A stretch of 64,000 nt of DNA from a virus. Shown piece by piece: positions 24,406 to 63,317 of the stretch. Numbering within the stretch: the stretch's first letter is position 1; each line of letters begins with the position of its first letter. The notes beneath the pieces were generated by a model. That model was not told where the DNA came from. It did not search any database and saw nothing but the letters and a program-made list of their open reading frames with translations. The translations under genes were made by a program, and so were the position numbers. Location: positions 1 through 64,000 of IMG/VR virus record IMGVR_UViG_3300028573_000014; one strand, 5' to 3'.

Positions 24406-26762
24406 ATCGCCACCGCCTCAGTGTCAATGACCATATTGTGCTCATGGTCATGATGGTCATGTGACTTTGTGCCTGCGATGGGTACGCCTGCCAGTGAACC
24501 ATTGGCCGGTTCAGTTGTGTCATCGAGCGTACACAGACAGTTAATCCCCGTGCAGATACAACTATCGGAGCGGGGATAGATTCCATATTTGAGCCAGGTA
24601 CGCGCACGATGCACCTGCCCGTCAGCACCAGAACACGTTTCGCAGTGGTCTTTCGTGCCGCCAAGCGTAAATTTCTTCATGCCGTTCATCTTGCCGTACA
24701 TGTTGCCCAGTATCTTCATGCCCTGTAGACCCTTATTGATCCACAGTTCAATTCGACTAAGCATGGCATTACGGGCTGCTGAAAACTCAGGGGTCTCCCT
24801 GAGCGGAATCACATTGCGATACATGTCGTTTGCCAGCGCAGTCCAGTAACTGCGTTCCTGCTTTGTTTCCAGATCGAGCGCTGACTTTTCTTCATCGGTC
24901 ATCTCAGCGGGATCTGTACCCGCTTCCTGCATTCCGTTCTTAAACGCATTCAGGAAAGCCATCTCAATTTCGCTACGCCCTGCTACTCCGAACTGATTGC
25001 GATTCAAGTTTCCCTGGAAAGCATCGGTCATGAGTTCATATAGAGCAGTGCGATACTGTGCCTCGGTGTCCTCGTAGCCTTTAACCGCCTGCACCCGGAT
25101 GGCATTCCAGATTGATTCCGACGGTTCTTCACCGGAAAGCAGGAAACGACCAAACGCTACTGCATGGGCGGGTAGAGAGTCGCTCTTAAATGCATAATTT
25201 CTGCCCTTGCGCTCAATGAGAACACGCCAGTTCTTCAACTCTTTGTGCTGGGCATCGGGCAGGAACGGAATAGGATCGACACTTTTGCCTGTTGGTGCGG
25301 TAGGTGCAGTCGCTTCGGTAGATGCGCCCACTTCCGCAGCACGTGGAGTGCTTTCGCCTGTGCGGGATGGCTTATCGGGCTTAGCATTTTCTCCACCGGA
25401 AACCATGCCTGGATTACCAGGGGCCACACGCCAGTAGTTCTGCATTTCAGCGGATGGCACTGGAATGCCGCCGATAAGGTACAGACCTGTCAGGTTTTCG
25501 TCTACATTCAGCCCCAGTGTTTTCTGAGCATTTGCCAGATCCAGAACACCGTCCTTAAGCTGCTTGCTCACGGTATCCGTGCGGGATGAGATATCCTCGT
25601 CCAGGCCACGTACACGCTTGAAGGTGGGGACAATGCGCCATTCAGGATTGAGTGGCTTGGCAACCTGCTCAGTGAAGATGTCGGCATAGCGTTCTGACTG
25701 CGGGACCAGCCAGCTAATGAGCCATTCACGCTTCTGGTCGTAGAACTTTGTGCCCTGCGCACGCTGCGCCTGACGTGGCTCAATAAGTTCAAGTGGAACG
25801 CGCAGGATACGCAGACAGGCATCACGCGCCTGGTCGGTCAGGTTGGGCATTCCCAGCTTATCGAAGTCTTGCTGGAATTTCAGCATTTCCCAACGTGTGG
25901 GTAGAACAACCGTGCGACCTGCATTGGCTGCGCCCTGATACATCCGGCGCAGGTATTCACTCAGTTCGAGTTTCTGGTCAGGACCAGGGACATAACTCGA
26001 CCCGTCCGCAGGCTGAATAACAAAGGATGGCATCGCCATGTTGCGAAAGAACATCAATTGCGTGGCTGTGATCTCTGTCTCGGTAGCAGCCTGCGCATAA
26101 GCGACCATCAGCGGACCCGTGCCGCCAAAGTCTTCAAAGAAGTCAATGTTATGGAAATAAACAGTGTCTTCCGGCGGCAACCAGTCCAGATCTGGTTCAA
26201 GCTCGCTGCCCCAGACCGGACGGATATGGAAACCGCCCAGACCGCGTGAAGTATCGGTCTCACGGCGGAAGAAGTTATTGTTAATCCACTGAAACCCGTC
26301 GAGAATGCCAGACTGAGTCTTCAACCGACGCAGCAACACTTCGCCATAGCAGCAGTAGGACGTTTCAGACCGCTCAATAATGCTCTGGAAGTTAGACTGG
26401 AATGCCGCCTGAATGCCCTGAGCGCGAGGGGTGAAGAATTTGGGATCTCCCTCTTCGAGCAGTTCTCCAGCGGCATTGGCGATCTTAAAGTCAACCTGGC
26501 GCAGCGACTCAGCGCGGAGTTCAATGGCAGAACGTGCTGTAACTGCTGTCCTGAACAAATGTGCGATCTCGCTGTAGGAGACCTGCGGACGTAGCAGTGC
26601 GACTTCCTGATTCAGGTAAGTCTTGATAGCGCTGCCGCTGTTTTCCATGACGTTGAAGGGCAGGTCATTCAGGTCCAGTTCAAAGCGATTCTTGCGAATC
26701 GTTTGCGTGATCTGCTTTGATCGATTCTTTTTGCCCTGGAAGTGTCGATTACGGTGACTCAT
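24402..26762 (-). CDS. Portal protein fused to a MuF-like head morphogenesis domain
   Basis: 786 residues from ATG 26762 (ATGA overlap with terminase); the frame also opens at 26789. Residues about 60-420 have the portal pattern: a helical start with TAVTARSAIELRAESL, the wing and stem strands, and a C-terminal helix rich in Gln/Arg. After a Pro/Thr linker (about 430-480) comes a MuF-type domain (about 500-740) ending in a Cys cluster, KDHCETCSGADGQVHRAR and CICTGINCLCTLDD, the Cys-rich zinc-like end of gpF proteins. A His-rich tail (SHDHHDHEHN) follows. The portal forms the DNA gate; MuF proteins sit inside near it and help assembly. Such fusions are known but uncommon. Confidence 0.8.
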   Translation of the reverse strand: MSHRNRHFQGKKNRSKQITQTIRKNRFELDLNDLPFNVMENSGSAIKTYLNQEVALLRPQVSYSEIAHLFRTAVTARSAIELRAESLRQVDFKIANAAGELLEEGDPKFFTPRAQGIQAAFQSNFQSIIERSETSYCCYGEVLLRRLKTQSGILDGFQWINNNFFRRETDTSRGLGGFHIRPVWGSELEPDLDWLPPEDTVYFHNIDFFEDFGGTGPLMVAYAQAATETEITATQLMFFRNMAMPSFVIQPADGSSYVPGPDQKLELSEYLRRMYQGAANAGRTVVLPTRWEMLKFQQDFDKLGMPNLTDQARDACLRILRVPLELIEPRQAQRAQGTKFYDQKREWLISWLVPQSERYADIFTEQVAKPLNPEWRIVPTFKRVRGLDEDISSRTDTVSKQLKDGVLDLANAQKTLGLNVDENLTGLYLIGGIPVPSAEMQNYWRVAPGNPGMVSGGENAKPDKPSRTGESTPRAAEVGASTEATAPTAPTGKSVDPIPFLPDAQHKELKNWRVLIERKGRNYAFKSDSLPAHAVAFGRFLLSGEEPSESIWNAIRVQAVKGYEDTEAQYRTALYELMTDAFQGNLNRNQFGVAGRSEIEMAFLNAFKNGMQEAGTDPAEMTDEEKSALDLETKQERSYWTALANDMYRNVIPLRETPEFSAARNAMLSRIELWINKGLQGMKILGNMYGKMNGMKKFTLGGTKDHCETCSGADGQVHRARTWLKYGIYPRSDSCICTGINCLCTLDDTTEPANGSLAGVPIAGTKSHDHHDHEHNMVIDTEAVAI

Positions 26763-28132
26763 AAGAATATGTACTCCGCAGTGGGCCATGCAACATCAAT
26801 GGGCGGAGGAGGCGGAAACTGGACATTTCCATAAAGCACATCAGCGGGGATAATGCCCTGCGAGGCGTGCGGGATATCGATAAGTTCCGGTGCCCACTTG
26901 GGAACACCGTAGGTTGCGCCATGATAGGCCAGCGCTAGAGACATCACCATATCGTCATTCGAGTCACGGGGACCGGAATAACGGAATGCGCCAGATGGCA
27001 GTCGCTCCATCTGGAATGCATGGAGTTCGTCCAGAAGAAGCTGACCTATCGGCTGACCGTCAATGGCTTCACCCTTGTGAAGAACCTGTAGCTGACGATT
27101 GTCGAAGGCGGCAGCCAGTGCCTCAATGATGAGCGCCTTACTGCTACCACTGGTAGTGAAGGGCATAATGGGCAAGCCAGTGTCCATGAGACTTTCCATG
27201 AACGCCAGGTTGGTATTCTGCTCGACAATGATGCCTGCTGCGTGGAAAAGATTTGCCAGTGCAACAATGCGACCTTTTTGCAGCTTGTAGTCCACATGGT
27301 TGGCCCGGTCAATATAACAAACCGACATCAACGTTACGTCGATGACGGTGAACACGGAAAAGTCATTGGTCTTGGCAAGGTCAACGCCGATGACGTAGGT
27401 ATGACCGGCCTTTGGCTGAGCCTGAACAAAGCCCTGCGCCATCTCTTCCAGATTGCGGAACACAGATCCTGCATCCGAAATGAACTCGGCCAGGTATTCC
27501 TGCGAGAAAATGTTGACGGGCGTAGTTTTACGTGCATCTTCAATTTCACTTGCAGGCAGGAACGGATTGTCGGAAGAAGGCTTGTGCCAGCTCTCCCAGT
27601 CGGGAAAAGCGTCGTTTTTGCCCAGTCGATACAGATTCCAGAACCAGTTGTAACCCTTTGGCGTTGAGGCAAACAGGGCACGACCCTGCGTGGTCATGAG
27701 CATGGGTCGGATAACTTCTTGCCAGGTGTCACCAGAGGGAACAACCGCAGCCTCGTCAATGAGCACGAGATCGTATTCGCGTCCACGAGGACCATCTGGG
27801 TTGTCCAGTGACCACATTTCCACGACTGCACCGTTGATGGTCTCAATACGGTGTTCGTCTTCCTTCTTTTCCTTCGTGATGGGCGCAAGCATGTTCTTGA
27901 CAATGCGCCACATGTCTGCCAGCATCTTGTAGGTCGGGCACATGTAGGCAATGCGCTTGGCCTCGGACACTGCTCGAAGTATTTCAGCACGAAGGGTAAC
28001 GGTCTTGCCCCATCGTCGACCACAGTCCAGAACACGGAACCGGGCAGGCGACTCATAGACTTCTATCTGTCCAGGATGAAGGGCGAGACCCAGATAGACA
28101 TTAATCCTGTTGTCCATCGACCACCTGTGCAT
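26759..28132 (-). CDS. terL: Terminase large subunit
   Basis: 457 residues. ATPase part: Walker A GRRWGKT (38-44), Walker B LVLIDE (122-127, catalytic E127), coupling motif STP (156-158). Nuclease part with RNase H-like acidic residues D251 (VIGVDLAKTND), E304 (IIVEQN) and D393/D394 (SNDDMVMSLALA). All expected residues are present. It cuts and pumps DNA into the prohead through the portal encoded next to it. The start may be ATG 28132 or ATG 28117; AGGTGG precedes the latter only closely. Its gene overlaps that of the small subunit. Confidence 0.9.
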   Translation of the reverse strand: MHRWSMDNRINVYLGLALHPGQIEVYESPARFRVLDCGRRWGKTVTLRAEILRAVSEAKRIAYMCPTYKMLADMWRIVKNMLAPITKEKKEDEHRIETINGAVVEMWSLDNPDGPRGREYDLVLIDEAAVVPSGDTWQEVIRPMLMTTQGRALFASTPKGYNWFWNLYRLGKNDAFPDWESWHKPSSDNPFLPASEIEDARKTTPVNIFSQEYLAEFISDAGSVFRNLEEMAQGFVQAQPKAGHTYVIGVDLAKTNDFSVFTVIDVTLMSVCYIDRANHVDYKLQKGRIVALANLFHAAGIIVEQNTNLAFMESLMDTGLPIMPFTTSGSSKALIIEALAAAFDNRQLQVLHKGEAIDGQPIGQLLLDELHAFQMERLPSGAFRYSGPRDSNDDMVMSLALAYHGATYGVPKWAPELIDIPHASQGIIPADVLYGNVQFPPPPPIDVAWPTAEYIFL

Positions 28133-29048: not shown

Positions 29049-29277
29049 CGGTCAATGCCTTTAATCGCTCAGATATATCCCACGAGGACTCACTTAGCCA
29101 GTACTTCTTGTCTTTGCAGGATACTTTTCCATATGATACCAGTTCCCTGACATACATGTGGGCGTTCCCTGCGCTTGTGGCAGCCCCTTCCGCTATTTCG
29201 CGCATCGTGGGAAACTGTCCACCATGAGAAAGTCCATAGGTTGCAATAAAGAGTTCTATTTGATCGCGTTTTACCAT
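29038..29277 (-). CDS. LexA-like winged helix DNA-binding protein (copy 2)
   Basis: 79 residues; the same winged helix as its neighbour with clear similarity: RDQIELFIATYGLSHGGQFPT followed by a helix ending SAGNAHMYVREL. The wing is KVSCKDKKYWL. The two genes look like a tandem duplication whose members have since diverged. It lies between the first copy and the proteasome-like gene with short overlaps. Confidence 0.65.
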   Translation of the reverse strand: MVKRDQIELFIATYGLSHGGQFPTMREIAEGAATSAGNAHMYVRELVSYGKVSCKDKKYWLSESSWDISERLKALTDVK

Positions 29278-29813
29278 GATTTTGACTTTACCATAAAAGG
29301 TCCACGGACGTTAGGACTAAAGCGTGCAGCAACAGTCAGCGCCAGTTCGATCCGATGATCAACATCCCTCATTTTCTCAGTAGACCCAAGCGATCCGAGT
29401 GCATAATCTTCGCCAGATCCACAGGCAGCATAGTTCTCTGCGTAATGATTGACCTGAAAATCACTACAGACGCAGTAGATAGTTCCATGATAGCCTACCA
29501 GAAATTCTCCGCTGCTTTCCAGATTGTTTTCGATCTTGGAGATACCATGTTCTTTGAACAAACTGCGAACGTTTTCTGCAAAAACTTTGACCATGTAGGC
29601 ATCGTCAGAAACACCGTCTTTCTGCCTGGGAACAGTCAGATGATGCTGCAAGATTTGCCCCATCCTGAATGACCAGGTATAGCCAATGAGGAAGTCTCCG
29701 ACCTCGAAAACCTTTGGCAGCAGGCTGGTTCGCATTGTATTGCCTACGCTGGATGAACTATCAGCGCCTATGTATACCGTGTCGTTTTTAGCGATGCCAA
29801 CAATGCAGGTCAT
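29271..29813 (-). CDS. Proteasome-like Ntn hydrolase
   Basis: 180 residues beginning MTCIVGIAKNDTVYIGADSS. If the first Met is removed, Thr1, Asp17 and Lys33 (in LLPKVF) fall exactly where the catalytic residues of proteasome beta subunits and HslV lie, without a propeptide. Later parts (SSGEFLVGYHGTIYCV, AACGSGEDYALGSL) also match the fold, the latter like the Gly-rich SGS loop. It would form a threonine protease, probably oligomeric. No partner ATPase is seen in the window. AAAGGA precedes the ATG. Single phage copies of this family are known but their targets are mostly unknown. Confidence 0.75.
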   Translation of the reverse strand: MTCIVGIAKNDTVYIGADSSSSVGNTMRTSLLPKVFEVGDFLIGYTWSFRMGQILQHHLTVPRQKDGVSDDAYMVKVFAENVRSLFKEHGISKIENNLESSGEFLVGYHGTIYCVCSDFQVNHYAENYAACGSGEDYALGSLGSTEKMRDVDHRIELALTVAARFSPNVRGPFMVKSKSW

Positions 29814-30217
29814 TTGTATCCTTTGCTACTATCGTTTATGCTGCTAATTTCACTGGATATTGTGGCAATATAGGCGCGGCCATCCTTAAATTTCACAATT
29901 ACTTTTGTGCCCGGATATTTACCAGCCGCAACCCCCAATGGATCGTCAATGGAAATAGAGATAAAGGAGCCTTTTCGCATAAACCGTACAAAGGTTTTCC
30001 CTTCGGAATCTGGGTCGTAAATATAGCCTTCCGCAGTCCCTAATATGCCAACCTCACCTTCCTCAGTGTCTGGCGTATCGGATGGCGGACTCCACCAGGG
30101 CAAATAGAGATCAGGCCACATTTCGCGCTGATCGAAGTACCGATCCCGCTTCGACTGCCACTTGTGCTGCCGTGCATCTCGCCCCAGTCGGCGGATGGCT
30201 TCCAGTAAGGTTGTCAT
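29810..30217 (-). CDS. Protein of unknown function next to the split terminase
   Basis: 135 residues. Basic helical start (RRLGRDARQHKWQSKRDRYF), a Trp/Pro segment (LYLPWWSPPSD), then a beta-rich half (KTFVRFMRKGSFISISIDD, TKVIVKFKDGRAYIATI). ATGA overlap with the upstream ATPase-like gene. Not recognised. Confidence 0.55.
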   Translation of the reverse strand: MTTLLEAIRRLGRDARQHKWQSKRDRYFDQREMWPDLYLPWWSPPSDTPDTEEGEVGILGTAEGYIYDPDSEGKTFVRFMRKGSFISISIDDPLGVAAGKYPGTKVIVKFKDGRAYIATISSEISSINDSSKGYK

Positions 30218-30822
30218 GATATCCTGTAAGGACTTTCCATGACAGGCGGATCATCCCCGGTAAGTTCAACAAACTCTCCGAGCATATCCGCGCGAAACCC
30301 GACCTCGGAGGAGGACTCCACCACACTGCGAAGATCCTCGGCATTAAGGAACGGGTTGGTTTTGATGGGGAACATGAAGAACGCTGCATCGAGAAAGTGC
30401 TTCTTGCTCTGGGCGAACTTCTTCAACTCGATAAACAGGTCGGTCTGGTGCTTATGGCTTGGAACAGGCGTACCGACTGCCAGCAGTTTCCCGTCTGGGA
30501 TTAAGCACGGCAAAAGTTCATCGAGCAAATAAGGAGTCATGGTCGCAGGCTCATTGATGATGACGAGATCGAACTGATGTCCCCTGTATTTATCCTCGTT
30601 TTTCTCCATGTAGACAATTTTTCTGCCGCTGCTTACCACCATTGTTGTTTTGAAGAATTTGTTCATCCCGTGATTTGGACCAACAAAGAGGATTTCACGA
30701 GCATCGGATATCTCTATGCAAAATCTGCATAGTGCATCTTTGCCCCAGCGCCGACTGGTAGACACAACACGGTAGCGATCTCTGGAGTCCAGGACTAATT
30801 GCTGTCCAGTATGCGGGATCAT
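30214..30822 (-). CDS. Terminase-like ATPase domain, stand-alone and altered
   Basis: 202 residues that align along their whole length with the ATPase half of the full terminase at 26759-28132: HTGQQLVLDSRDRYRVV with HPGQIEVYESPARFRVL, SRRWGKD (23-29) with GRRWGKT, DLVIINE (85-91) with DLVLIDE, and TNPFLNAEDLRSV with DNPFLPASEIEDA. The Walker A Thr is Asp and the Walker B Asp is Asn, while the Lys and the catalytic Glu remain, so ATP binding is probably weak. It ends where the ATPase domain ends; a matching nuclease domain is encoded separately at 37344-37892. Confidence 0.8.
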   Translation of the reverse strand: MIPHTGQQLVLDSRDRYRVVSTSRRWGKDALCRFCIEISDAREILFVGPNHGMNKFFKTTMVVSSGRKIVYMEKNEDKYRGHQFDLVIINEPATMTPYLLDELLPCLIPDGKLLAVGTPVPSHKHQTDLFIELKKFAQSKKHFLDAAFFMFPIKTNPFLNAEDLRSVVESSSEVGFRADMLGEFVELTGDDPPVMESPYRIS

Positions 30823-37343: not shown

Positions 37344-37892
37344 TTATGCAAACCTTATCGATAGGCCACCGTGCCGCGTGCCATGCAAAGCCAGTGCGGT
37401 AGCCACTACTGTTTCAGTGTTTCTGACGGGCAGAAAATCTCCCTGTCCGCCAGCGCGGTATTCATAGCCAGATAGCTCATTGATAAGCCCTTCGTCAGGA
37501 ACAATGCGCAATCGCCCCATATTTAATTCCAGCGCCAGATTATTGAGCATGTCGGCTCTGCTTGCCCTGGTCATACGTAGTGGGTACACGGGTAATCCCT
37601 CCGATCGCAACGCTTCGATGTTAGGACCGCCAATGCTGGCCGCCTCAACATAGATAAGCTGCGGTTTCCATATTTTGTGCAACGCGGATACTCGATCTCG
37701 CTGCACTGCATAACCCTCACCTATGGTTCGGTCCAGCGCGACCAGTTGATGCGTTGTAGCATCCATAATGGCTACGCCCATACGGTCCATATGGTTTCCC
37801 CAGTCCAGCCCGAAGACTATCCGATGACCAACAACAGGCTTATCCTGCGGCTCAACTCTGGCATATCGTTCTGGATTGGGGAAGAGCCTCAT
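37344..37892 (-). CDS. Terminase-like nuclease domain, stand-alone
   Basis: 182 residues that match the nuclease half of a large terminase: RIVFGLDWGNHMDRMGV (D30) with the first Asp strand, QLIYVEAAS (E83) with IIVEQN of the full terminase, and RNTETVVATALALHGT (E160) where the full enzyme has the Asp pair before SLALAYHG. The third acidic residue is thus Glu. No ATPase domain is attached; its natural partner is encoded at 30214-30822, with the glycosylation island between. Could be a relic or a working nuclease for something other than packaging. RuvC-like resolvase is a less likely alternative. Confidence 0.75.
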   Translation of the reverse strand: MRLFPNPERYARVEPQDKPVVGHRIVFGLDWGNHMDRMGVAIMDATTHQLVALDRTIGEGYAVQRDRVSALHKIWKPQLIYVEAASIGGPNIEALRSEGLPVYPLRMTRASRADMLNNLALELNMGRLRIVPDEGLINELSGYEYRAGGQGDFLPVRNTETVVATALALHGTRHGGLSIRFA

Positions 37893-49878: not shown

Positions 49879-50120
49879 TCTATTTCCGAATCTGCCTGCG
49901 CGGCATCCATTGCGTCCTGTCGGGTCGGGAATCTGTTTTTCCCACCAGCAACGATGAATCCCTTGTACGCATCGTACCGCACCCAGCACCATTTGCCGTC
50001 GCCGTTTTCTTGCCCAACCACGTAGGTGAGACCTTCTTTCACCTTTGCCTCCCACGAAATAACAGGCTCTCGTTTATCCTGGGGGACGTGGCTAGTTTCT
50101 CGCCATTCCAGTGTTGTCAT
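49875..50120 (-). CDS. Small protein of unknown function
   Basis: 81 residues. Strands (LTYVVGQENGDGKWCWVRYD) then a helix (RQDAMDAAQADSE), a compact beta-alpha unit that resembles the C-terminal part of the gene at 51720-53093. Not recognised. Confidence 0.5.
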   Translation of the reverse strand: MTTLEWRETSHVPQDKREPVISWEAKVKEGLTYVVGQENGDGKWCWVRYDAYKGFIVAGGKNRFPTRQDAMDAAQADSEIE

Positions 50121-50365
50121 GCTCGTCCTGTCTCCTGGTCGATCTTGCGGATAATCTTACCATCATCACTGATCTCATTGACCCAGAAATCCCACGGCCC
50201 CACATTGTCCACCGTGTCCCAGCCAATATTATTGGCACGGATCAGGTCAGTGATCACACTCTCATCGTAGGGATCACGATCAATGGTCTCTGTTCCACCG
50301 TCAAAGCAGCCATCATAATCTTCACCGGTGCAATCGTGGCAGAATATAACGACTTCGTAATGCAT
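50117..50365 (-). CDS. Small acidic protein
   Basis: 82 residues from ATG 50365 (overlap TGATG). CHDCTGEDYDGCFDGG near residue 12 has Cys and Asp clusters. Acidic overall. Not recognised. Confidence 0.5.
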   Translation of the reverse strand: MHYEVVIFCHDCTGEDYDGCFDGGTETIDRDPYDESVITDLIRANNIGWDTVDNVGPWDFWVNEISDDGKIIRKIDQETGRA

Positions 50366-54814: not shown

Positions 54815-55141
54815 TTAAAATTGTTTAGTTCGTTCACTAAAGAATAGTTTCATGTCTCTAAGCAAAACGTAGTATTTAGCTTGCAATCCATAGGATCGGT
54901 TAAGCATGTTGATTGCACTATCTGGAATAGGATAGATTGGTACACTATGCGAGATCATAACGTACACATGAGGATTAGGTCGACGACCATAAATCAGGCG
55001 ATAAGCCTTATTGATCGTCATAGCATCATGACAGTTTTGAGTCCACAATTTTTCTGCGAAGCATTTACCGCGCTTCGTGGTCCAGAATGCCGGGTCTATC
55101 CCTTCGCACCATAACGGTATTAAATCACTTAGTTCTATCAT
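54815..55141 (-). CDS. Small protein related to the product at 40501-41019
   Basis: 108 residues from ATG 55141; the frame opens earlier at 55297 through repeat-rich DNA that is unlikely to be coding. FWTTKRGKCFAEKLW and MTINKAYRLIYGRRPN resemble the middle of the basic protein at 40501. Convergent with the plus-strand gene, one base apart. Possibly DNA-binding. Confidence 0.5.
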   Translation of the reverse strand: MIELSDLIPLWCEGIDPAFWTTKRGKCFAEKLWTQNCHDAMTINKAYRLIYGRRPNPHVYVMISHSVPIYPIPDSAINMLNRSYGLQAKYYVLLRDMKLFFSERTKQF

Positions 55142-55397
55142 AGTTAAGCGATTGTAGCACGTAGCAGGCGCAAGGCGCAACGATGCATCGTAACAGTACT
55201 GAATTACAGGGCCGCAATCGATAGCGAAGCATAGCACGAAGGATTGCGCAATCGATGCAAGGCGAAGCATAGGCCAGGTCGTAGCAGGCGCGATCATAGT
55301 CCAGTGTTATCGCCTGCTCAATTTGCTGGCAAGGTAGAACAGAATAGAACATAAACCTACGCTTTGAAAATTGGTGAAAATTGGTTGTCTAAACCTA
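55142..55397. other. Repeat- and palindrome-rich region, possible origin or control site
   Basis: Gene-free. It holds two perfect 12-bp palindromes, ACGATGCATCGT (55180-55191) and GATTGCGCAATC (55242-55253), two direct copies of GCGAAGCATAG (55224 and 55262), two of AGCAGGCGC (55163, 55283) plus an inverted partial copy at 55311, and a tandem GAAAATTGGT (55366 and 55376). It lies directly upstream of the first early promoter. The mix is typical of replication origins and control regions, but no protein known to bind it has been identified. Confidence 0.45.
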
Positions 55398-55426
55398 TTG
55401 ACAGTGTACTGCAATAAGAGTATAAT
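55398..55426 (+). promoter_or_regulatory. Early promoter 1 with CAGT-NN-ACTG dyad
   Basis: TTGACA (55398-55403), 17-bp spacer, TATAAT (55421-55426): a perfect sigma70 consensus. The dyad CAGTGTACTG (55402-55411) overlaps the -35. The leader contains GACGCGAGCACA, also found after promoter 2. It drives the first early gene at 55467. Confidence 0.85.
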
Positions 55427-55466
55427 TCTCTCATAAGACGCGAGCACACACGAAGGATTAAACAAC

Positions 55467-55688
55467 ATGTTTTCACTAAAAGCCACAATCGCCGAAAGAA
55501 ACAACGAAACAATAGTGATGTTTTCCGACGAAGGTGCGAAGTTTCAGGAAGATTGCTTAAACACTGTCGGGTTAGTCAAGTTCTCACCCGCTCACAAAAT
55601 GATCGGTTCACTAGTAACGGCTATCAACAATAACCAGATTTCAGTAAGCGAAGCAACCAAAAAGTTTAACGCCGCATTAAGCAACTAA
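55467..55688 (+). CDS. Small early protein of 73 residues
   Basis: Good ribosome site (GAAGGA) and consensus promoter 41 bp upstream. Sequence MFSLKATIAERNNETIVMFS then a helical end (SVSEATKKFNAALSN). Single-stranded-binding or inhibitor proteins can look like this, but there is no motif. First gene of the early operon. Confidence 0.65.
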   Translation: MFSLKATIAERNNETIVMFSDEGAKFQEDCLNTVGLVKFSPAHKMIGSLVTAINNNQISVSEATKKFNAALSN

Positions 55689-55718
55689 GTCAATCGACAC
55701 AATAAGGGATAAGCTACC

Positions 55719-56186
55719 ATGATCACAAATTGCCCTAAGTGCGGCGGACTCGGTCACATTGCCTGCTATGGTCACATAGCGCAAGGTGCGTGCTTTAAAT
55801 GTAATGGGACGGGCAAAATTAATGCACCGGTGGCACGCAAGGATCGCAAGGTGCAATCCCCTGAGCGCAAAGCAGAATTAGCGGCATTAAAAGCAGATAA
55901 GCTAATTATTGGTACAGTCGATGACGCGATCAAACGTGCCATTGATGCTATTGCAGATAAGCCATCGTATAAGGCAGAAATAAGCTTGCTTATCAATTGC
56001 TTCGTGCGTGAGGTAAGCATAGCAGGCTTGACACTCTACCAGGCAAGGATCGCAGATGAGAAGTTAAGCAAGGCGATCTACCGCTTGCCATCTAGCAGCG
56101 ATCTATCCTGGTTGACTATCAACAAGCCTTACACGCTTAACGATGGCATTATAAAGCAGGCAATCCATAATCACATAGGACGGTAA
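55719..56186 (+). CDS. DnaJ-type zinc-finger protein
   Basis: 155 residues. CPKCGGLGHI (4-13) and CFKCNGTGKI (26-35) form a DnaJ-like CxxCxGxG zinc pair. A basic linker (RKDRKVQSPERKAELAALKA) follows, then helices. No J domain, so it is not a full co-chaperone. AAGGG precedes the ATG. Confidence 0.65.
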   Translation: MITNCPKCGGLGHIACYGHIAQGACFKCNGTGKINAPVARKDRKVQSPERKAELAALKADKLIIGTVDDAIKRAIDAIADKPSYKAEISLLINCFVREVSIAGLTLYQARIADEKLSKAIYRLPSSSDLSWLTINKPYTLNDGIIKQAIHNHIGR

Positions 56187-56189
56187 AAA

Positions 56190-56384
56190 ATGATCGAACG
56201 AATAAGCATTGTACGCAAACTCATAGAACTAAACCAGAAACAACTTGAACACGATCAATTGATTCTAGAGTCCTCGTCTTACAATAGCGCTCAATGGTTA
56301 GTTTATCGGCAAGCGGTAGAGTCAGATAAACGGACAATTGAGCGTTATGAGAACGAATTAAAACAATTGGAGAATCAATCATGA
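56190..56384 (+). CDS. Small coiled-coil protein
   Basis: 64 residues, nearly all one helix (IVRKLIELNQKQLEHDQLIL, VESDKRTIERYENELKQL). AGGACGG upstream; ATGA overlap with the next gene. Not recognised. Confidence 0.55.
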   Translation: MIERISIVRKLIELNQKQLEHDQLILESSSYNSAQWLVYRQAVESDKRTIERYENELKQLENQS

Positions 56385-56560
56385 TCGCATTAACCATAGT
56401 CTCACTTCGCACCGGTGATCTTGTATTGCAAGACACGTTTAACGATAGCTTCGTGTGGGAAATTATCGCCACATACACAGAATGCACCGATCTTCCCTAC
56501 GATTGTACTAGCTTCGTAGCAGGCGCGTTTTATGTGGCCCTGGATGATATCGATAACTGA
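56381..56560 (+). CDS. Small protein of 59 residues
   Basis: Starts in the ATGA overlap with the previous stop. SLRTGDLVLQDTFNDSFVWE and three Cys; beta-rich with an acidic end (VALDDIDN). SH3-like in pattern, not recognised. Confidence 0.6.
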   Translation: MIALTIVSLRTGDLVLQDTFNDSFVWEIIATYTECTDLPYDCTSFVAGAFYVALDDIDN

Positions 56561-56605
56561 GAATTTTCGTTATGTGTCTGTTATGCTAATTCAGTAAATT
56601 GGTTA

Positions 56606-56634
56606 TTGACAGTACACTGCAAAAAGCATATAAT
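56606..56634 (+). promoter_or_regulatory. Early promoter 2 with CAGT-NN-ACTG dyad
   Basis: TTGACA (56606-56611), 17-bp spacer, TATAAT (56629-56634). Dyad CAGTACACTG (56610-56619) overlaps the -35. The leader has ACGCGAGCACA as after promoter 1. Confidence 0.85.
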
Positions 56635-56672
56635 GGTATTCATAGACACGCGAGCACATGAGGGTAACGAAA

Positions 56673-56912
56673 ATGAACGGGTTTAACTTCACTTCACAGA
56701 ATTGGCAAGTCGACGAACACGAAGTAACGCCTACATTCGATAATGATGTTTTTAGCGCCATCGCCGCCGGCCAGGCTTGTGCAATTGCCCGTAAAGATAA
56801 GAGCGGTATTGAGTTTTTCAAGAGCATTGCAAAGAAAGGCAACATCGCATCGTTAACCAGCAAGGAGCAATCCCTAATCCGTATCTGGTATATGCGCTCA
56901 TTGGAGAGCTAA
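56673..56912 (+). CDS. Small early protein
   Basis: 79 residues from ATG 56673, chosen because GAGGG lies 9 bp before it while the ATG at 56658 has none. QACAIARKDKSGIEFFKSIA then a helical end. Not recognised. Confidence 0.6.
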   Translation: MNGFNFTSQNWQVDEHEVTPTFDNDVFSAIAAGQACAIARKDKSGIEFFKSIAKKGNIASLTSKEQSLIRIWYMRSLES

Positions 56913-56918
56913 GTCAAC

Positions 56919-57137
56919 ATGAACACGGTAAACGATAAGCGCCTGCTCTTAATCTCAGTACTGGAAGATCGCCGCACCAATGCCATTATGCGGGGAAACT
57001 TCAAAACCGCGAAAAACTTAACACGTTGGATCTGCTTCTTGCGTGGTCCTGCTACCAGATACGATATCGCGGCCCTGTATACAGAATATCGATGCAATCA
57101 TGAAACTATCGCGCCTGCTCAGTTAACTCTATTTTAA
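56919..57137 (+). CDS. Small basic early protein
   Basis: 72 residues, Arg-rich (LEDRRTNAIMRGNFKTAKNL, RWICFLRGPATRYD). Helical. Possibly nucleic-acid binding. Confidence 0.55.
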   Translation: MNTVNDKRLLLISVLEDRRTNAIMRGNFKTAKNLTRWICFLRGPATRYDIAALYTEYRCNHETIAPAQLTLF

Positions 57138-57151
57138 AAGGGGTGATCACC

Positions 57152-57241
57152 ATGAAACAAGCGAAGCATATGAAACGCGCCACGCGTAACAATCGGCAAT
57201 TTGTCAAGGCTTATCTCAAGTCTAAGACTCGCAAGTTCTAA
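57152..57241 (+). CDS. Tiny very basic peptide of 29 residues
   Basis: MKQAKHMKRATRNNRQFVKA and nine more residues; twelve Lys or Arg in 29. AAGGGG ribosome site 8 bp before the ATG, and the next gene has its own site right after the stop, so the frame is kept as a gene. Too short for routine calls. Possibly a nucleic-acid binding or host take-over peptide. Confidence 0.55.
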   Translation: MKQAKHMKRATRNNRQFVKAYLKSKTRKF

Positions 57242-57256
57242 AAGGATATACCAATC

Positions 57257-57556
57257 ATGATCAAGTCAATGTTTTCTATCGATGATGAACCGGGCGTTAT
57301 CTATCCTGGTTATACAGATGAACTAACCGCTTACATGGGGTTTGAGGATCCTTCGTTTGAACTTGCGATAGTACTGGAAATTTTAAAGGATCGGAGCGTC
57401 GAATATACATTCGATAACGATACTTTCAGCATACCAGAATTCGCGGATTTTACGCCAGAAAACGTATACAGCGGATTCGATATCGCCATCGATGGCGAAG
57501 TGAAGCACGTGTATAACGTGGGACAATGGTTGTTTATCTGGAATAGGGCGGTTTAG
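57257..57556 (+). CDS. Acidic early protein
   Basis: 99 residues, rich in Asp, Glu, Phe and Tyr (DDEPGVIYPGYTDEL, GFDIAIDGEVKHVYN). Acidic small phage proteins sometimes mimic DNA, but there is no direct sign. AAAGGA precedes the ATG. Confidence 0.6.
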   Translation: MIKSMFSIDDEPGVIYPGYTDELTAYMGFEDPSFELAIVLEILKDRSVEYTFDNDTFSIPEFADFTPENVYSGFDIAIDGEVKHVYNVGQWLFIWNRAV

Positions 57557-57565
57557 TAACACATA

Positions 57566-57593
57566 GCGCCTGCTAATTGGAGTTAGCAGGCGC
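57566..57593. terminator. Hairpin built from two AGCAGGCGC copies
   Basis: Arms GCGCCTGCTAA (57566-57576) and TTAGCAGGCGC (57583-57593) with a 6-nt loop. It follows the acidic gene's stop by 10 bp. No T-run follows, so it may slow or protect the RNA rather than end it. Confidence 0.5.
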
Positions 57594-57630
57594 AATTGTG
57601 AGACTAAGCATATTACAGGGGATATCATCG

Positions 57631-58380
57631 ATGTTAACCAATGGTTGTAGAGTAGCAGGCATATACGATGGCAAGTCATTTACTGGCAACTTGTATGAGT
57701 TAAATCATATTAGCAGTATTGAGTTAGACAATGGGATCATAGGGTTTGACGGGCGATATACTGAGCGCTTGCATATGTACACTGATAACCATAAGGCAAG
57801 CCAGCAATTTTGGGAAATCCCAGAATCCCCGGTTAATAGTGAATATGCCATTGGTGATCTCTCCGAGATTGCACGCGAATCCCTTGCCAAACAATTTAAG
57901 CCTGTAAAGTTAAGTGAATATCGCGCTATGGTGCAAAATAGGTTAATGACCTATAAGACGGTAAAGCAGGCAGTAACTTGTGAATATGGTCATAAGCATA
58001 TGATTGATCGTCGTGTCCCGGTTGCGCCTGCTATCGATGAGAAGCTTCTCAATATTGAATTCTTTTTCTACTGTTTAGCAGAATACGCGCGTTATCTGGA
58101 GGAACGTGAGTATGTGGCACGTAACGAAACGTGGAATCGCCTGGCTCGCAAGTTGTCATTGTCGGCAATTGCCTATGATGGCACGTTTGAGGGACTAGAT
58201 ACAGAGACAATTAAGCATATACGTGCGGAATTGTCGAAGCAATACGACGATCTATGCTTCGATTATCAGGTCAAAATCTATGGTGCGAAGTATATGCCGC
58301 GTCATATCCGATCTTGTGAGCTATGCTACAAAAACGATCTAGGCAAGCGTTATAGTGCTTACCTCGAAGGGATTAAATAA
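57631..58380 (+). CDS. Early protein with possible zinc sites
   Basis: 249 residues from ATG 57631 (AGGGG upstream); the frame opens at a TTG inside the hairpin. CEYGHKHMIDRR and, at the end, RSCELCYKNDLGKRY suggest metal binding. Helical middle (RNETWNRLARKLSLSAIAYD). Three bases separate it from the next gene. Not recognised. Confidence 0.55.
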   Translation: MLTNGCRVAGIYDGKSFTGNLYELNHISSIELDNGIIGFDGRYTERLHMYTDNHKASQQFWEIPESPVNSEYAIGDLSEIARESLAKQFKPVKLSEYRAMVQNRLMTYKTVKQAVTCEYGHKHMIDRRVPVAPAIDEKLLNIEFFFYCLAEYARYLEEREYVARNETWNRLARKLSLSAIAYDGTFEGLDTETIKHIRAELSKQYDDLCFDYQVKIYGAKYMPRHIRSCELCYKNDLGKRYSAYLEGIK

Positions 58381-58382
58381 CT

Positions 58383-58901
58383 ATGTGTAACGCGAAGCAT
58401 GCCTATAAATCAGCATACCGTAAAGAGCGCCAGTACTTTAACAACCTGATAAATCCCCTGGATTATCATGATCGCTATGTCGATACTCTACAGGAAAAAC
58501 AGACTCGTGAGACCTATATGTTTTGGGACGGTATGCAGAATCCGTGGAGTAATGATCGTTACTTCGATGCAATGATCGCCTGCTATGCATCGAAGTCAAT
58601 CTATACGCTTAAAGTACGATCTATGATGCTATGTCAATCATGTGGTGCGGTAAGTGATGAGTTAGACCATGATACTTGTCCTCATTGCCTGCTTATGGCG
58701 AGTCAGGCACTACTTAACGCTGCCAATGATACTTATGAGGATATCGCCAAAATATGGATCAATACCTTCGTGTGGCGTGATGATAATTACTTCGAGATTC
58801 AGCGCTTATACGATGATGCAAGCCAGCACGTGCAAGCAATGATCAATCTACAGGATGAGTATCATGTGGCATATTACAATGCCACCGGTAAGGAATCCTA
58901 A
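58383..58901 (+). CDS. Zinc-finger early protein
   Basis: 172 residues. LCQSCGAVSDELDHDTCPHC (82-101) is a clear zinc ribbon. Tyr/Asp-rich helical parts on both sides. Function unknown. Confidence 0.6.
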   Translation: MCNAKHAYKSAYRKERQYFNNLINPLDYHDRYVDTLQEKQTRETYMFWDGMQNPWSNDRYFDAMIACYASKSIYTLKVRSMMLCQSCGAVSDELDHDTCPHCLLMASQALLNAANDTYEDIAKIWINTFVWRDDNYFEIQRLYDDASQHVQAMINLQDEYHVAYYNATGKES

Positions 58902-58902
58902 C

Positions 58903-59136
58903 ATGATCCTGCTACTATGTGCAAAGAATCCACGCACGAAGCAGGAACGAAACTACATTCTAAAAATGTGCTATAAGGCTGCCCGCGCGGTAAATGGCGA
59001 TAAGACTGGGAATAATAATGGATCGAGAGTCTTAGATGGCAAGGTGATCATTGTAGACTTAGCTGGCAATGCCAGAATTGAAACACAGACAACATATACT
59101 CATCGCCCGCTCTTCACATGGATAGACCAGGACTAA
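58903..59136 (+). CDS. Small early protein
   Basis: 77 residues from ATG 58903 with AAGGA 9 bp upstream. Basic start (LCAKNPRTKQERNYILKMCY), beta end (KVIIVDLAGNARIET). Not recognised. Confidence 0.55.
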   Translation: MILLLCAKNPRTKQERNYILKMCYKAARAVNGDKTGNNNGSRVLDGKVIIVDLAGNARIETQTTYTHRPLFTWIDQD

Positions 59137-59142
59137 AACAAC

Positions 59143-59739
59143 ATGAAAACTAAACGACAAGTTGCGCCAATGCTCACAAAAAACCAGTTGATTGATCTAC
59201 TCATTACAGGAATCGCGCATGAACTTGTGAGCGATTATAAAAGCAACTATCCCTCGATTCAAACGCCTGCTAAGAATTACAAGACAATTGAGAAGTTAGT
59301 AAAAACAGGCGTTTTTAAATGGTCTCGCATATACCAATCGGGTGATCATGGTGCTGGCGTATACTTTACTGAGCAGGCGCTAAAACGATATGAGAAAATG
59401 ATCCGAGATCGCGCTTATGGGATCGTGCTCCGAGAGTCAATCTTTGATCTTAAATACGCTCCGAGATTGCGTGAACAGTTTGCAAACGAATCATGGTTAA
59501 AGTACTGCAATACCGAGCCAACTATCTGGCGCTGGTGGAATCACGGTAAGGGAAGTGCTTTTGAGTTTTTAGAGATAACGTTTACTAATGGGCTGGATCA
59601 ACGTGTCGAGATTAACTGCAATTATGACACCGATTGTATGGTCTCTTATGAGGAACGTTTACAACATGCTGATCTGCAATACTCACGCGCTGAAATTGCA
59701 CGTCTACCAATGGTAGAGCTATATCCCTTCTCACTATAG
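59143..59739 (+). CDS. Early protein of unknown function
   Basis: 198 residues. Helical start (LLITGIAHELVSDYKSNYPS), possible winged helix near residues 45-85 (IEKLVKTGVFKWSRIYQS, AGVYFTEQALKRYEKM). Beta C-terminus. Possibly a DNA-binding protein. Confidence 0.55.
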   Translation: MKTKRQVAPMLTKNQLIDLLITGIAHELVSDYKSNYPSIQTPAKNYKTIEKLVKTGVFKWSRIYQSGDHGAGVYFTEQALKRYEKMIRDRAYGIVLRESIFDLKYAPRLREQFANESWLKYCNTEPTIWRWWNHGKGSAFEFLEITFTNGLDQRVEINCNYDTDCMVSYEERLQHADLQYSRAEIARLPMVELYPFSL

Positions 59740-59751
59740 AGGATTCTAACT

Positions 59752-60162
59752 ATGAACACTAAACAAGCCTATGTCGAAGCCTACCGCGTATACCGTCAAT
59801 TTGATGGATCTTGCACCAATTTACAACTATATAGAACGTCTATACTTTGCAAGTATGGCACTATAGGCGCGAAGGCAATTGAATCGAGGGATAACCGATC
59901 CTATGCTTCGCCAATGCCAACAAAAAAGCATGCTTATCCTGCTATTTATCGGGCAACCTATCGGTTAGGGCAAATGTACGAACGTTCGATCTTGCTGGCA
60001 AGGTTTACACGCAATCCAGGAGACTACGACAAGGCGATAGAAGCGGAAAAGATCTTAGATGGCCTGGTGCGAAGCAATCCAGAACACTGGTTATATACTG
60101 ATTTTGTCAATGGGCGCAATTCCATCCGCGCGGCCCGACAATTGGAGTTGATCAATTTATAA
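59752..60162 (+). CDS. Early protein of unknown function
   Basis: 136 residues, basic, Tyr-rich, helical (TKQAYVEAYRVYRQFDGS, AIYRATYRLGQMYERSI). GAGG precedes the ATG by 11 bp. Not recognised. Confidence 0.55.
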   Translation: MNTKQAYVEAYRVYRQFDGSCTNLQLYRTSILCKYGTIGAKAIESRDNRSYASPMPTKKHAYPAIYRATYRLGQMYERSILLARFTRNPGDYDKAIEAEKILDGLVRSNPEHWLYTDFVNGRNSIRAARQLELINL

Positions 60163-60173
60163 CACTTTCGTTA

Positions 60174-60202
60174 TTGACAGTACACTGTAAACCTGCTACA
60201 AT
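60174..60202 (+). promoter_or_regulatory. Early promoter 3 with CAGT-NN-ACTG dyad
   Basis: TTGACA (60174-60179), 17-bp spacer, TACAAT (60197-60202). Dyad CAGTACACTG (60178-60187). Full element TTGACAGTACACTGTAA. It drives the sliding-clamp gene. Confidence 0.8.
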
Positions 60203-60232
60203 TCGATACATAAGCAAATGAGGGACTAAACC

Positions 60233-61852
60233 ATGACAGTAACAAACAACATGCGCCAGAATTGGCAACAATTGAGCGTAAAAAGCAATAATCCTGATTT
60301 CAAGCCTTTCTATGTGCCAATGGCGACAAGCTACCAGGGACGGCGCGCCAATTATGATTATGCAAGGGTTGAGTATACTTTCGAGTACTGGGCAAAGTCA
60401 TTGCAAGGCGAAGCGTCGAATGATCCTTACCTGAGCAATCATGATACAGCATACTTCGCCGACGAATACCGGCAGGCTTATGAAAAGTTTTTAGATAAGT
60501 TTGCCAGCATCGAAGCAGACAAGCGCCAAAAGGATGAGCACGCGGTAAGGATCGCGCTATATCATGCCAACGTGGCAAACGAAACAACATTCGACATTGC
60601 CAGCTATGCCAACGATATGATCTCGGATTATGAGCATAGCGCCGGGTCAATTGTGTCAAGTGTCCTCCAGGAGAATTTAGAGCAGGCGCTTAAACTGCTA
60701 GAAAAAGGATACGGTAAAACGCCAGATCAACATATGGTGCAGATTAAATCTGGCAAGTATGAATTGCAATTAACTGCTACCAATGGTTCTATGTGGTTAC
60801 AAACTGGCGTTACTTATGCGCCAGGGCTGCCGGTTAATATCTTCCTTCCCGCGAAGCGCTTGCAAGACCTGGTTAAGGCATTGCCAGCATTTAGAATCGA
60901 TATGAATACCACGACGCGCGAAGTTGACAGTATTAAGCACTTATACGCGCCTGCTTTGCACCTTGTGTCTGGTTGCGCTAGTGCCAATGTGATCGGCACT
61001 AGAACGCCTAAAAAGGTGCGGGAAATGCCAGCGCTACCAATTGGTGACTATATCCTGATTAATGATGTTATTGGCTTTCGTAGCAAGTTGGAGCAGGCGC
61101 TTGCAATAACGGCAAAAAATGATCGTCGCCCTATACTCGAATGTGTAAACCTCAAGATTGAGAATAACACGCTATCGATTGTCGCCGCGGATGGCTGGCG
61201 CTTGTCGGTAGATAAGATCGAAGTTGAATCGGGCGATATCGCTGGCAATTGGAATTTACACAATACTGATATCCGCGCTTTACTGGCAATACTGCCAGCC
61301 AAAAACGCTCAATCTACATTGACTCTAAGCACGGCGGGCGAGTGTATGTTTTTTGTGTATGATCGCGTGATTGCCTGCTTTACCGCTGTTAAGGGAAAGT
61401 TTCCAGATTATGATCAGATTATTCCTCGTCAACCTGCTATGAACGTAGCGTTAAACCTTAACGATACTATCCGCCAGATAAAGAGTCTCAAACCCTTCTA
61501 TAAGGAAAGCGCTAATACTGTCAAAATTGAGATTGTCCAGGGGACAAGCGGCAATATATATCATGATCCTGCTACCGTAACACTGAGCGCCACAAGCCAG
61601 GAAAAAGGATCTAGAACGGTAGAGCTTAGAGCAGGCGAGTCAACCGGTAATATCAAGGCTTCGGTCAATGGTGCTTACTTGCTGGAGATACTCGAAAAAA
61701 TGGCGAAGGCGCTACCCAAAACAAAAAGCACCATTGAGCCTTCCTTCCTGCTCAGTTTGAGCGATCAAGCACCCTGGAAGATCGACTCGTGGGACGCGCA
61801 AGGCTGCCCGGGTACGACTTATGTTATTATGCCAATGAGTGAACCACGCTAG
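60233..61852 (+). CDS. dnaN: DNA polymerase III beta clamp with N-terminal extension
   Basis: 539 residues, about 165 more than a normal clamp. From residue 165 on the three clamp domains can be followed: YELQLTATNGSMWLQTG and LPAKRLQDLVKALP (domain 1), ENNTLSIVAADGWRLSV and KGKFPDYDQIIP near residue 388 (domain 2, the second almost the family motif), and VNGAYLLEILEKM (domain 3). The first 165 residues are helical, rich in Tyr and Asp, with no recognised match. The clamp tethers a polymerase to DNA; a phage copy may pull host polymerase to its own replication. Own promoter directly upstream; GAGGG precedes the ATG. Confidence 0.8.
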   Translation: MTVTNNMRQNWQQLSVKSNNPDFKPFYVPMATSYQGRRANYDYARVEYTFEYWAKSLQGEASNDPYLSNHDTAYFADEYRQAYEKFLDKFASIEADKRQKDEHAVRIALYHANVANETTFDIASYANDMISDYEHSAGSIVSSVLQENLEQALKLLEKGYGKTPDQHMVQIKSGKYELQLTATNGSMWLQTGVTYAPGLPVNIFLPAKRLQDLVKALPAFRIDMNTTTREVDSIKHLYAPALHLVSGCASANVIGTRTPKKVREMPALPIGDYILINDVIGFRSKLEQALAITAKNDRRPILECVNLKIENNTLSIVAADGWRLSVDKIEVESGDIAGNWNLHNTDIRALLAILPAKNAQSTLTLSTAGECMFFVYDRVIACFTAVKGKFPDYDQIIPRQPAMNVALNLNDTIRQIKSLKPFYKESANTVKIEIVQGTSGNIYHDPATVTLSATSQEKGSRTVELRAGESTGNIKASVNGAYLLEILEKMAKALPKTKSTIEPSFLLSLSDQAPWKIDSWDAQGCPGTTYVIMPMSEPR

Positions 61853-61868
61853 AAAGTTGCTATACTTT

Positions 61869-61902
61869 GGTGATTGACAGATAATTGTCAATCACCTATA
61901 CT
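61869..61902 (+). promoter_or_regulatory. Early promoter 4 with 11-bp inverted repeat
   Basis: TTGACA (61874-61879), 17-bp spacer, TATACT (61897-61902). The -35 lies inside a perfect dyad with arms GGTGATTGACA (61869-61879) and TGTCAATCACC (61886-61896) and a 6-nt loop GATAAT. The dyad fills the spacer. Its centre differs from the CAGT-NN-ACTG of the other promoters, so a second or variant operator is likely. Confidence 0.75.
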
Positions 61903-61938
61903 AAACCTACACGACGCGAACAATTGGAGAAAACAACT

Positions 61939-62601
61939 ATGTATAAATCAAACGACACAACCAGCAAAGTTAAGACCCTCGCCGACGAACTTTACAGCGC
62001 CTTCCAGAACGACAAGCGCAACGATGGGACAGAGTTTGTACATTTGAAGGATGGATCGCCAGAATGGATGACTCAGGTTATCCACACGGCACACGGTGAC
62101 AAGTTCCCCGATGATACCGTTTACGAATTTGTATATCGCGCGGCGATGGCGCTGGCAGACGCTGGCGATTATTTACAGGATGCCATCTCGGAGATTGAGC
62201 CAGATATCTATACTCATGATTTAACCGCGTGGCTTCATGCACGGGTGGATCACATTGAGTATATTGATCAGGCTATCTCGGAATTCGGGCAATTTGACAG
62301 CGGTTTCAACCTGCTCTCAGCGGCCCAGAAAATGCAGATCGATGAGATTAGTTACAGTGTACTGTCAAGCCTGGAAAGCCTCGCAGATGACGCAATAGAG
62401 GAAGAATACCAGGCAGACGAAGAAGAAGAATCACACGGCTTTGACTGGGATAATTATCCGCCGATTCAGTCTCGATTTTACTTCGATCAATTGTGGAAGG
62501 GACGCGATTATTTGCTGGCGGATGTTCACAATAACGATCTAGTCCTGGCTGATCTCGATTATTGGTTCTGGCTTGATACCAATACCTACAGCGCCGAATA
62601 A
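61939..62601 (+). CDS. Acidic early protein of unknown function
   Basis: 220 residues from ATG 61939 with GGAG upstream; earlier starts lie too close to the promoter. Strongly acidic (EEEYQADEEEESHGFDWDNY). Helical with several aromatic residues. Not recognised. Confidence 0.6.
   Translation: MYKSNDTTSKVKTLADELYSAFQNDKRNDGTEFVHLKDGSPEWMTQVIHTAHGDKFPDDTVYEFVYRAAMALADAGDYLQDAISEIEPDIYTHDLTAWLHARVDHIEYIDQAISEFGQFDSGFNLLSAAQKMQIDEISYSVLSSLESLADDAIEEEYQADEEEESHGFDWDNYPPIQSRFYFDQLWKGRDYLLADVHNNDLVLADLDYWFWLDTNTYSAE
62353..62369 (-). promoter_or_regulatory. Exact second copy of the early promoter 3 operator inside a gene
   Basis: On the minus strand the sequence is TTGACAGTACACTGTAA, identical over 17 bp to promoter 3. 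No -10 box lies at the right distance, so it is more likely a binding site than a promoter, perhaps for looping. Confidence 0.55.
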
Positions 62602-62675
62602 GCCAGCGTAAACCGCGCGGACCTGGCAACAGGTCCGCTATACCTCATCAAAGCATAAGAGAAGGCTAAAACACT

Positions 62676-63317
62676 ATGAAAACAGACAATATACACGGCT
62701 TCACAGTAGGACCAGCAAAGATCGGCACAAACAAGATCGCTATCACACGAATCTCAACCGGTAGGGTTGTTCGCTCCTTCAATGCTAGCGATGCTTATAC
62801 CAATTGCCAGCAGGCGCTTGAATGGCTCAAGGAAAACAAAAAAGGCGCTCCGATCTATGTCTCCGACTCTGAGCCGAAATTCTCGCAGTATGTGATCGAT
62901 CATCCTGGCAATGGATACTATGATAAAGCGACCAGCAAGCGCATTAACGCGGCAGCCCAAAAGATCGAGGCGATCAAGTATCTGCAAACCATCGTTAAAC
63001 CAGGCCAAACCGTCTCGGTCTCGCTGGTTAGCGTGGCACGCTCCGGCCTGAGCAGGCGAGTCAAGTTGTTCTATACCGTGAAGGGTCAAAACCTGAATAT
63101 TACAGCCTGCGCGGCGACTATTCTGGGCTGGCATTATGACGGGGACTCGGTGCGTGTCGATGGCTGCGGCACAGATGCGGCGTTCCAGGTTGTGTATCAC
63201 CTTTCCAGCGCTCTATACCCGAAAGGCGCAAAAGTGCCCGCCAGCTATCGCGGGAAGAAGGATGCAAGCGGTTTTGTTCGTGATGGCGGTTATGTTCTGC
63301 TGAATCGCTGGCTATAA
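62676..63317 (+). CDS. Conserved phage-type protein of unknown function
   Basis: 213 residues. The segment VSLVSVARSGLSRRVKLFYT followed by GWHYDGDSVRVDGCGTDAAF resembles proteins widely seen in phage genomes with SRSGMSRR and GCGMD signatures, whose role is unknown to me. GAGAAGG lies upstream. Confidence 0.6.
   Translation: MKTDNIHGFTVGPAKIGTNKIAITRISTGRVVRSFNASDAYTNCQQALEWLKENKKGAPIYVSDSEPKFSQYVIDHPGNGYYDKATSKRINAAAQKIEAIKYLQTIVKPGQTVSVSLVSVARSGLSRRVKLFYTVKGQNLNITACAATILGWHYDGDSVRVDGCGTDAAFQVVYHLSSALYPKGAKVPASYRGKKDASGFVRDGGYVLLNRWL

Follow-up and report, generated by a model that had tools for sequence, protein, structure and literature searches.

An asymmetric, HIP1-like iterated word with a strict hexamer core is concentrated in one 8-kb gene block of a viral genome

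Chi is a strictly recognised short asymmetric word with a graded 3′ context. HIP1 (GCGATCGC) is a palindrome spread over whole genomes; it was first described decades ago, and there is still debate about what it is for. The density of HIP1 is near 1 per 1000 nt, and single-base departures from it fall preferentially on its first and last positions, which flank the methyltransferase site CGATCG (PMC4390886). The stoperators of cluster A mycobacteriophages (L5, D29) are short asymmetric sites present in about 20–30 copies per phage genome, mainly between genes or at gene edges, and the orientation of the site is essential for the repressor (PMC9283540). Here we describe the 9-mer AGCAGGCGC, which occurs at about 25 times expectation across 8 kb of a viral genome. 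Like cyanobacterial HIP1 and the alternative HIPs, it is a short word found in genes and gaps and in all frames; like the stoperators it is a short asymmetric site, and with Chi it shares strictness as well.

The stretch of DNA that was analysed, referred to as the window, comprises bases 1–64000 of an IMG/VR virus record of 79,953 bp. An exact search found 14 copies of AGCAGGCGC in the window and the same 14 in the whole record, with none in the final 16 kb (positions 64001–79953). A first-pass annotation, made by eye, had listed 13 copies between 55163 and 62817 and had supposed the word to be scarce in the rest of the window. On recount all 13 were exact, 8 on the plus strand and 5 on the minus strand, and a single further copy was found, at 23042. 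AGCAGGCGC is the most frequent 9-mer in the window, where dinucleotide shuffles gave a mean of 0.92 copies and a maximum of 3. The 8-mer AGCAGGCG occurs 24 times in the record, and 18 of these copies lie between 55163 and 63058. This clustering was matched in 0 of 20,000 uniform placements, so the density elsewhere is not equal to that of the block, and with 18 of 24 copies in 10% of the record the word is not spread over the whole replicon. Against an expectation of 1.3, the 18 copies correspond to a z-score of 13.2, the largest among the 8-mers of the region; the null for this score, built on the whole phage, took automatic open reading frames, two of them on the wrong strand, and the curated codon null agrees with it. 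As the annotation had also claimed, copies lie in genes and in gaps and in both orientations (10 plus and 8 minus for AGCAGGCG, with no strand bias along the block).

Table 1. Word sites, promoters and other features of the block, in window coordinates
Feature	Coordinates	Strand	Remark
Domain with 13 AGCAGGCGC, 18 AGCAGGCG, 34 AGCAGG	55163..63058		counts
AGCAGGCGC	55163..55171	+	upstream of early block, or in ORF 54815-55297 if most upstream start used
AGCAGGCGC	55283..55291	+	imperfect inverted partner of 55311
AGCAGGCG	55311..55318	-	intergenic
Sigma-70 promoter TTGACA-17-TATAAT, dyad CAGTGTACTG	55398..55426	+	consensus-like
AGCAGGCGC	56518..56526	+	gene 56381-56560, VAGA
Sigma-70 promoter TTGACA-17-TATAAT, dyad CAGTACACTG	56606..56634	+	consensus-like
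AGCAGGCGC	56939..56947	-	gene 56919-57137, KRLLL
AGCAGGCGC	57111..57119	-	gene 56919-57137, IAPAQ
AGCAGGCGC	57566..57574	-	intergenic; left arm of perfect 11-bp hairpin
AGCAGGCGC	57585..57593	+	intergenic; right arm of hairpin 57566-57593
AGCAGGCGC	58024..58032	-	gene 57631-58380, VAPAI
AGCAGGCG	58577..58584	-	gene 58383-58901, IACYA
AGCAGGCG	59264..59271	-	gene 59143-59739, TPAK
AGCAGGCGC	59372..59380	+	gene 59143-59739, EQALK
Sigma-70 promoter TTGACA-17-TACAAT, dyad CAGTACACTG	60174..60202	+	consensus-like
DNA polymerase III beta (sliding clamp) homologue	60233..61852	+	three 9-mers and one 8-mer
AGCAGGCGC	60681..60689	+	clamp gene, EQALK
AGCAGGCGC	60947..60955	-	clamp gene, YAPAL; variable loop
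AGCAGGCGC	61092..61100	+	clamp gene, LEQALA; ungapped homologous stretch of clamp fold
AGCAGGCG	61630..61637	+	clamp gene
Sigma-70 promoter TTGACA-17-TATACT, diverged dyad	61874..61902	+	consensus-like
AGCAGGCGC	62809..62817	+	gene 62676-63317, QQALE
AGCAGGCG	63051..63058	+	gene 62676-63317, SRRV

The sites are spread throughout a block of rightward genes (55.1–63.1 kb) in which GC is 0.42–0.48 over most of the length, versus about 0.51 elsewhere, and codon usage is outlying (GC3 0.48 versus 0.55; distance 3.79 versus a null maximum of 3.47). The annotation had called this region early. The region does contain a sliding clamp gene and four sigma-70 promoters within a rightward block (Table 1), and from these we infer the early status. 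The first three promoters share a CAGTRYACTG dyad, which the fourth carries in a diverged form. In the window the dyad CAGTACACTG was seen at 55398, 56606, 60174, 62355 and 2952, and three of these copies extend over the −35 box and the spacer of consensus promoters; the dyads are probably operators of one repressor. When the early promoter-operator was sought in viral contigs, the matches were unrelated. An Rfam search of the block gave no match, and no DNA relatives of the block were found among phages or plasmids.

We examined the anatomy of the word in the 36 copies of AGCAGG in the block. The first six bases are strictly required and behave as an all-or-none unit, while the next three, C-G-C, are graded: the C is present in 26 of the 36, followed by the G in 18 and the final C in 17. 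One-mismatch variants of the hexamer were nowhere significantly above the codon-shuffle expectation and at several positions were below it (TGCAGG, for example, was observed 0 times versus 6.5 expected), and the excess of mismatches is confined to positions 7 and 9 of the word. These results indicate an all-or-none core with a graded right edge. The flanks also set the block apart: a C stands immediately before the hexamer in 3 of 36 block copies versus 42 of the 83 copies in the rest of the phage, and immediately after it in 26 of 36 versus 30 of 83. Neither AGCAGGCGC nor AGCAGG is self-complementary, and the word is thus not palindromic. Near-identical strains show no variation at the word sites that they cover.

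The contribution of codon usage was evaluated with nulls in which the proteins were fixed and codons were either shuffled between positions encoding the same amino acid or sampled from the usage of the block. In 1000 synonymous-codon shuffles of the region, AGCAGGCGC had a mean of 0.4–0.6 copies and never exceeded 4, compared with the 13 observed, which excludes codon usage alone as the explanation; AGCAGG was expected about 7 times in the block. Of the 18 AGCAGGCG sites, 13 are within genes, where they cover all six strand and frame classes (EQAL, APA, AGA, RLL, SRR and ACY). The remaining 5 lie in gaps, which make up 10% of the block, a weak excess (P=0.03). Sites 55163 and 55283 count as intergenic if the leftward gene starts near 55144 and as genic if the start is 55297. 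That genic sites occupy every frame and both strands points to recognition of the DNA itself, and not of the protein or RNA. The coding sequence is bent to keep the signal in all reading frames.

Among the comparators, the only match in kind was the HIP1 of viral contig L055, which is perhaps a cyanophage. The same pipeline found 39 HIP1 sites in 20.5 kb of this contig, with mismatches almost all at the two edge positions, in all three frames, and with 22 genic sites versus 2.7 by codon shuffle. AGCAGGCGC shares with it a strict hexamer core, graded edges and a density on the order of 1 per 500 bp. Two features of words of the HIP type are found in AGCAGGCGC: genic sites in all frames at a frequency far above what codon usage and composition predict, and a strict core with deviations at the edges only. 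However, HIP1 is palindromic and genome-wide, whereas AGCAGGCGC lacks that symmetry and is limited to a single 8-kb block of the phage. Moreover, the core of HIP1 is a methyltransferase site, whereas for AGCAGGCGC the methyltransferase link is putative and no host with the same word appeared among about 800 genome draws.

The explanation that we favour, tentatively and at somewhat less than an even chance, is by analogy with HIP1: AGCAGGCGC may be an iterated word of this kind, carried by a module that has a separate history, and the strictness of its hexamer core, AGCAGG, makes it most likely the recognition site of a DNA enzyme. AGCAGG would then be the asymmetric target of this sequence-specific enzyme, which would most likely be a methyltransferase and would belong to the host, to the phage or to the replicon where the module evolved. 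The sites would accumulate by point substitution favouring recognition, as proposed for HIP1 around CGATCG, and the sharp regional limit would reflect either the separate history of the module or a need for the sites in this block only. The annotation had offered Chi-like, uptake, methylation-linked and protein-binding motifs and a mobile short repeat as candidates; the anatomy best fits a methylation-linked word in the HIP1 sense, one that acts at the DNA level, and the mobile repeat is disfavoured. A second word with the anatomy of HIP1, but asymmetric and local to one phage block, would offer a compact setting for testing which enzyme reads such words and why they exist. The phage itself carries an N6/N4 methyltransferase gene, at G000:72118-73551 (record numbering), outside the word block; it belongs to a methyltransferase pair that spans G000:71762-73551. 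It is also conceivable, though doubtful in our view, that a phage-specific word, asymmetric but strand-symmetric in its use, marks one gene domain for the phage's own DNA-binding or DNA-modifying protein. Such a mark would run through coding sequence and would be distinct from promoter operators, from stoperators and from HIP or Chi words derived from the host.

The most weight among the rival explanations falls on a protein of the phage, either a regulator or an organiser of DNA, that would silence the early block or give it structure in the manner of stoperators but without dependence on orientation; we consider it unlikely. The sites coincide with a block of four promoters with operator-like dyads, two of them form an inverted pair in a hairpin, flank preferences extend around the sites, and the weak excess in gaps rather suits a regulatory role. 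As a control, we located the stoperators of D29. The 30 sites at ≤2 mismatches lie for the most part in intergenic DNA or at the edges of genes, nearly all point the same way relative to transcription, and mismatches are tolerated, in agreement with published work (PMC9283540 and PMC6550527). In contrast, the sites described here are predominantly genic, run in both directions in a rightward block and have a strict core, and no repressor candidate was found among the protein family matches of the phage. A Chi-like word, or another host signal for recombination, replication or repair, would likewise be strict, short and asymmetric with a graded 3′ context, as observed, yet we regard it as quite improbable, since the block shows no strand bias, the sampled Chloroflexota have no enrichment beyond coding words, the word is local within the phage, and the replication origin apparently lies elsewhere, at four dyads in the initiator gene.

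Many insertions of a short repeat, either mobile or duplicated, could also have produced identical 9-mers in both genes and gaps. Decaying copies of such a repeat would scatter mismatches over all positions; the strict core without an excess of one-mismatch decay products, the graded C-G-C, and flanks that are unlike those of other phage AGCAGG and are unshared beyond the graded positions disfavour this explanation and leave it very improbable. In addition, when the clamp is aligned with bacterial beta clamps, no gap interrupts the stretch that contains site 61092 (LEQALAITAKNDRRPILE), which indicates that this site arose by substitution, while site 60947 is uninformative about insertion because it lies in a variable loop. 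Least credible of all is that codon or codon-pair usage, or chance, explains the word. Four sites do encode (E/Q)QAL in one frame and four on the other strand (A/T)PA, and in host-like genomes the word is mostly a coding word of this type. However, four further frame classes and the gaps also hold sites, the remaining 70 kb of the phage, with a similar kind of proteins, has one copy, and both codon nulls refute this explanation.

The ten nearest relatives of the phage TerL in GTDB genomes (about 38–43% identity) are all Chloroflexota, mostly Anaerolineae, and on this basis the virus probably infects Chloroflexota bacteria. In 400 Chloroflexota genomes the density of the word was at most about 165 per Mb, versus about 1,400 per Mb in the block, and in 396 genomes of one class WAGCAGGCG reached at most about 61 per Mb, versus about 1,100 per Mb in the block; these comparisons cover about 800 Chloroflexota genome draws, and the true host may lie outside the sample. 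In four of the richest genomes most copies were coding words, and about half of these were CAGCAGGCGC. The iterated words of Chloroflexota prophage contigs themselves were only coding words, tandem arrays and repeats, and paired-motif scans of viral contigs gave, among the matches listed, mostly tandem or coding CAGCAGGCGC arrays. Relatives sought among viral contigs through the clamp, TerL, DnaB, RNA ligase and one early protein were either near-identical strains or too distant to compare, and none of intermediate distance was found.

Among the clustered 9-mers of 207 phage loci, AGCAGGCGC ranked second. The other leading words that were inspected had one orientation and long shared flanks, and several were directly upstream of start codons. 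The iterated 5′ gene signals GATAGGAGC (L053) and AGTCAGTAA (L257) are likewise 9-mers with similar counts per similar length, but, unlike AGCAGGCGC, they have one orientation and long shared flanks, and those of L053 lie just before start codons. Elsewhere, at L037:17670-19764, GTCACTTCGGG occurs about 20 times in 2.1 kb in a single orientation and with irregular spacing.

Several other features of the phage were observed. A lambda-like replication origin is probably located near 77.7 kb, inside an O-like initiator gene and away from the block; the candidate region, G000:77684-77790 (L009:15684-15790), contains four TAAACCWGGTTTAGTACC dyads beside AT-rich 13-mers. The dyad word ACCAWTGGT has 12 copies dispersed over the whole record. 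In addition to the intact TerL (26759-28132), the window contains two extra ORFs similar to parts of a terminase large subunit: 30214-30822 to its ATPase half (5e-14 in comparison with the intact copy of the phage) and 37344-37892 (minus strand) to its nuclease half (9e-13 in the same comparison). The second ORF is up to 48% identical to Chloroflexota TerL. The DnaB helicase gene (G000:74382-76799) has a long insert matching terminase profiles, perhaps an intein common to terminases. The ORF at 29271-29813 (minus strand), close to the head genes, has a weak Pfam match to a proteasome subunit and is a possible head protease. A tRNA-Phe gene (G000:66925-66999; L009:4925-4999) has G at position 33, which is a near-universal U in tRNA. 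Finally, a hypervariable patch of about 215 bp distinguishes positions 49931-50144 of the window from the near-identical strain IMGVR 3300028666_000033.
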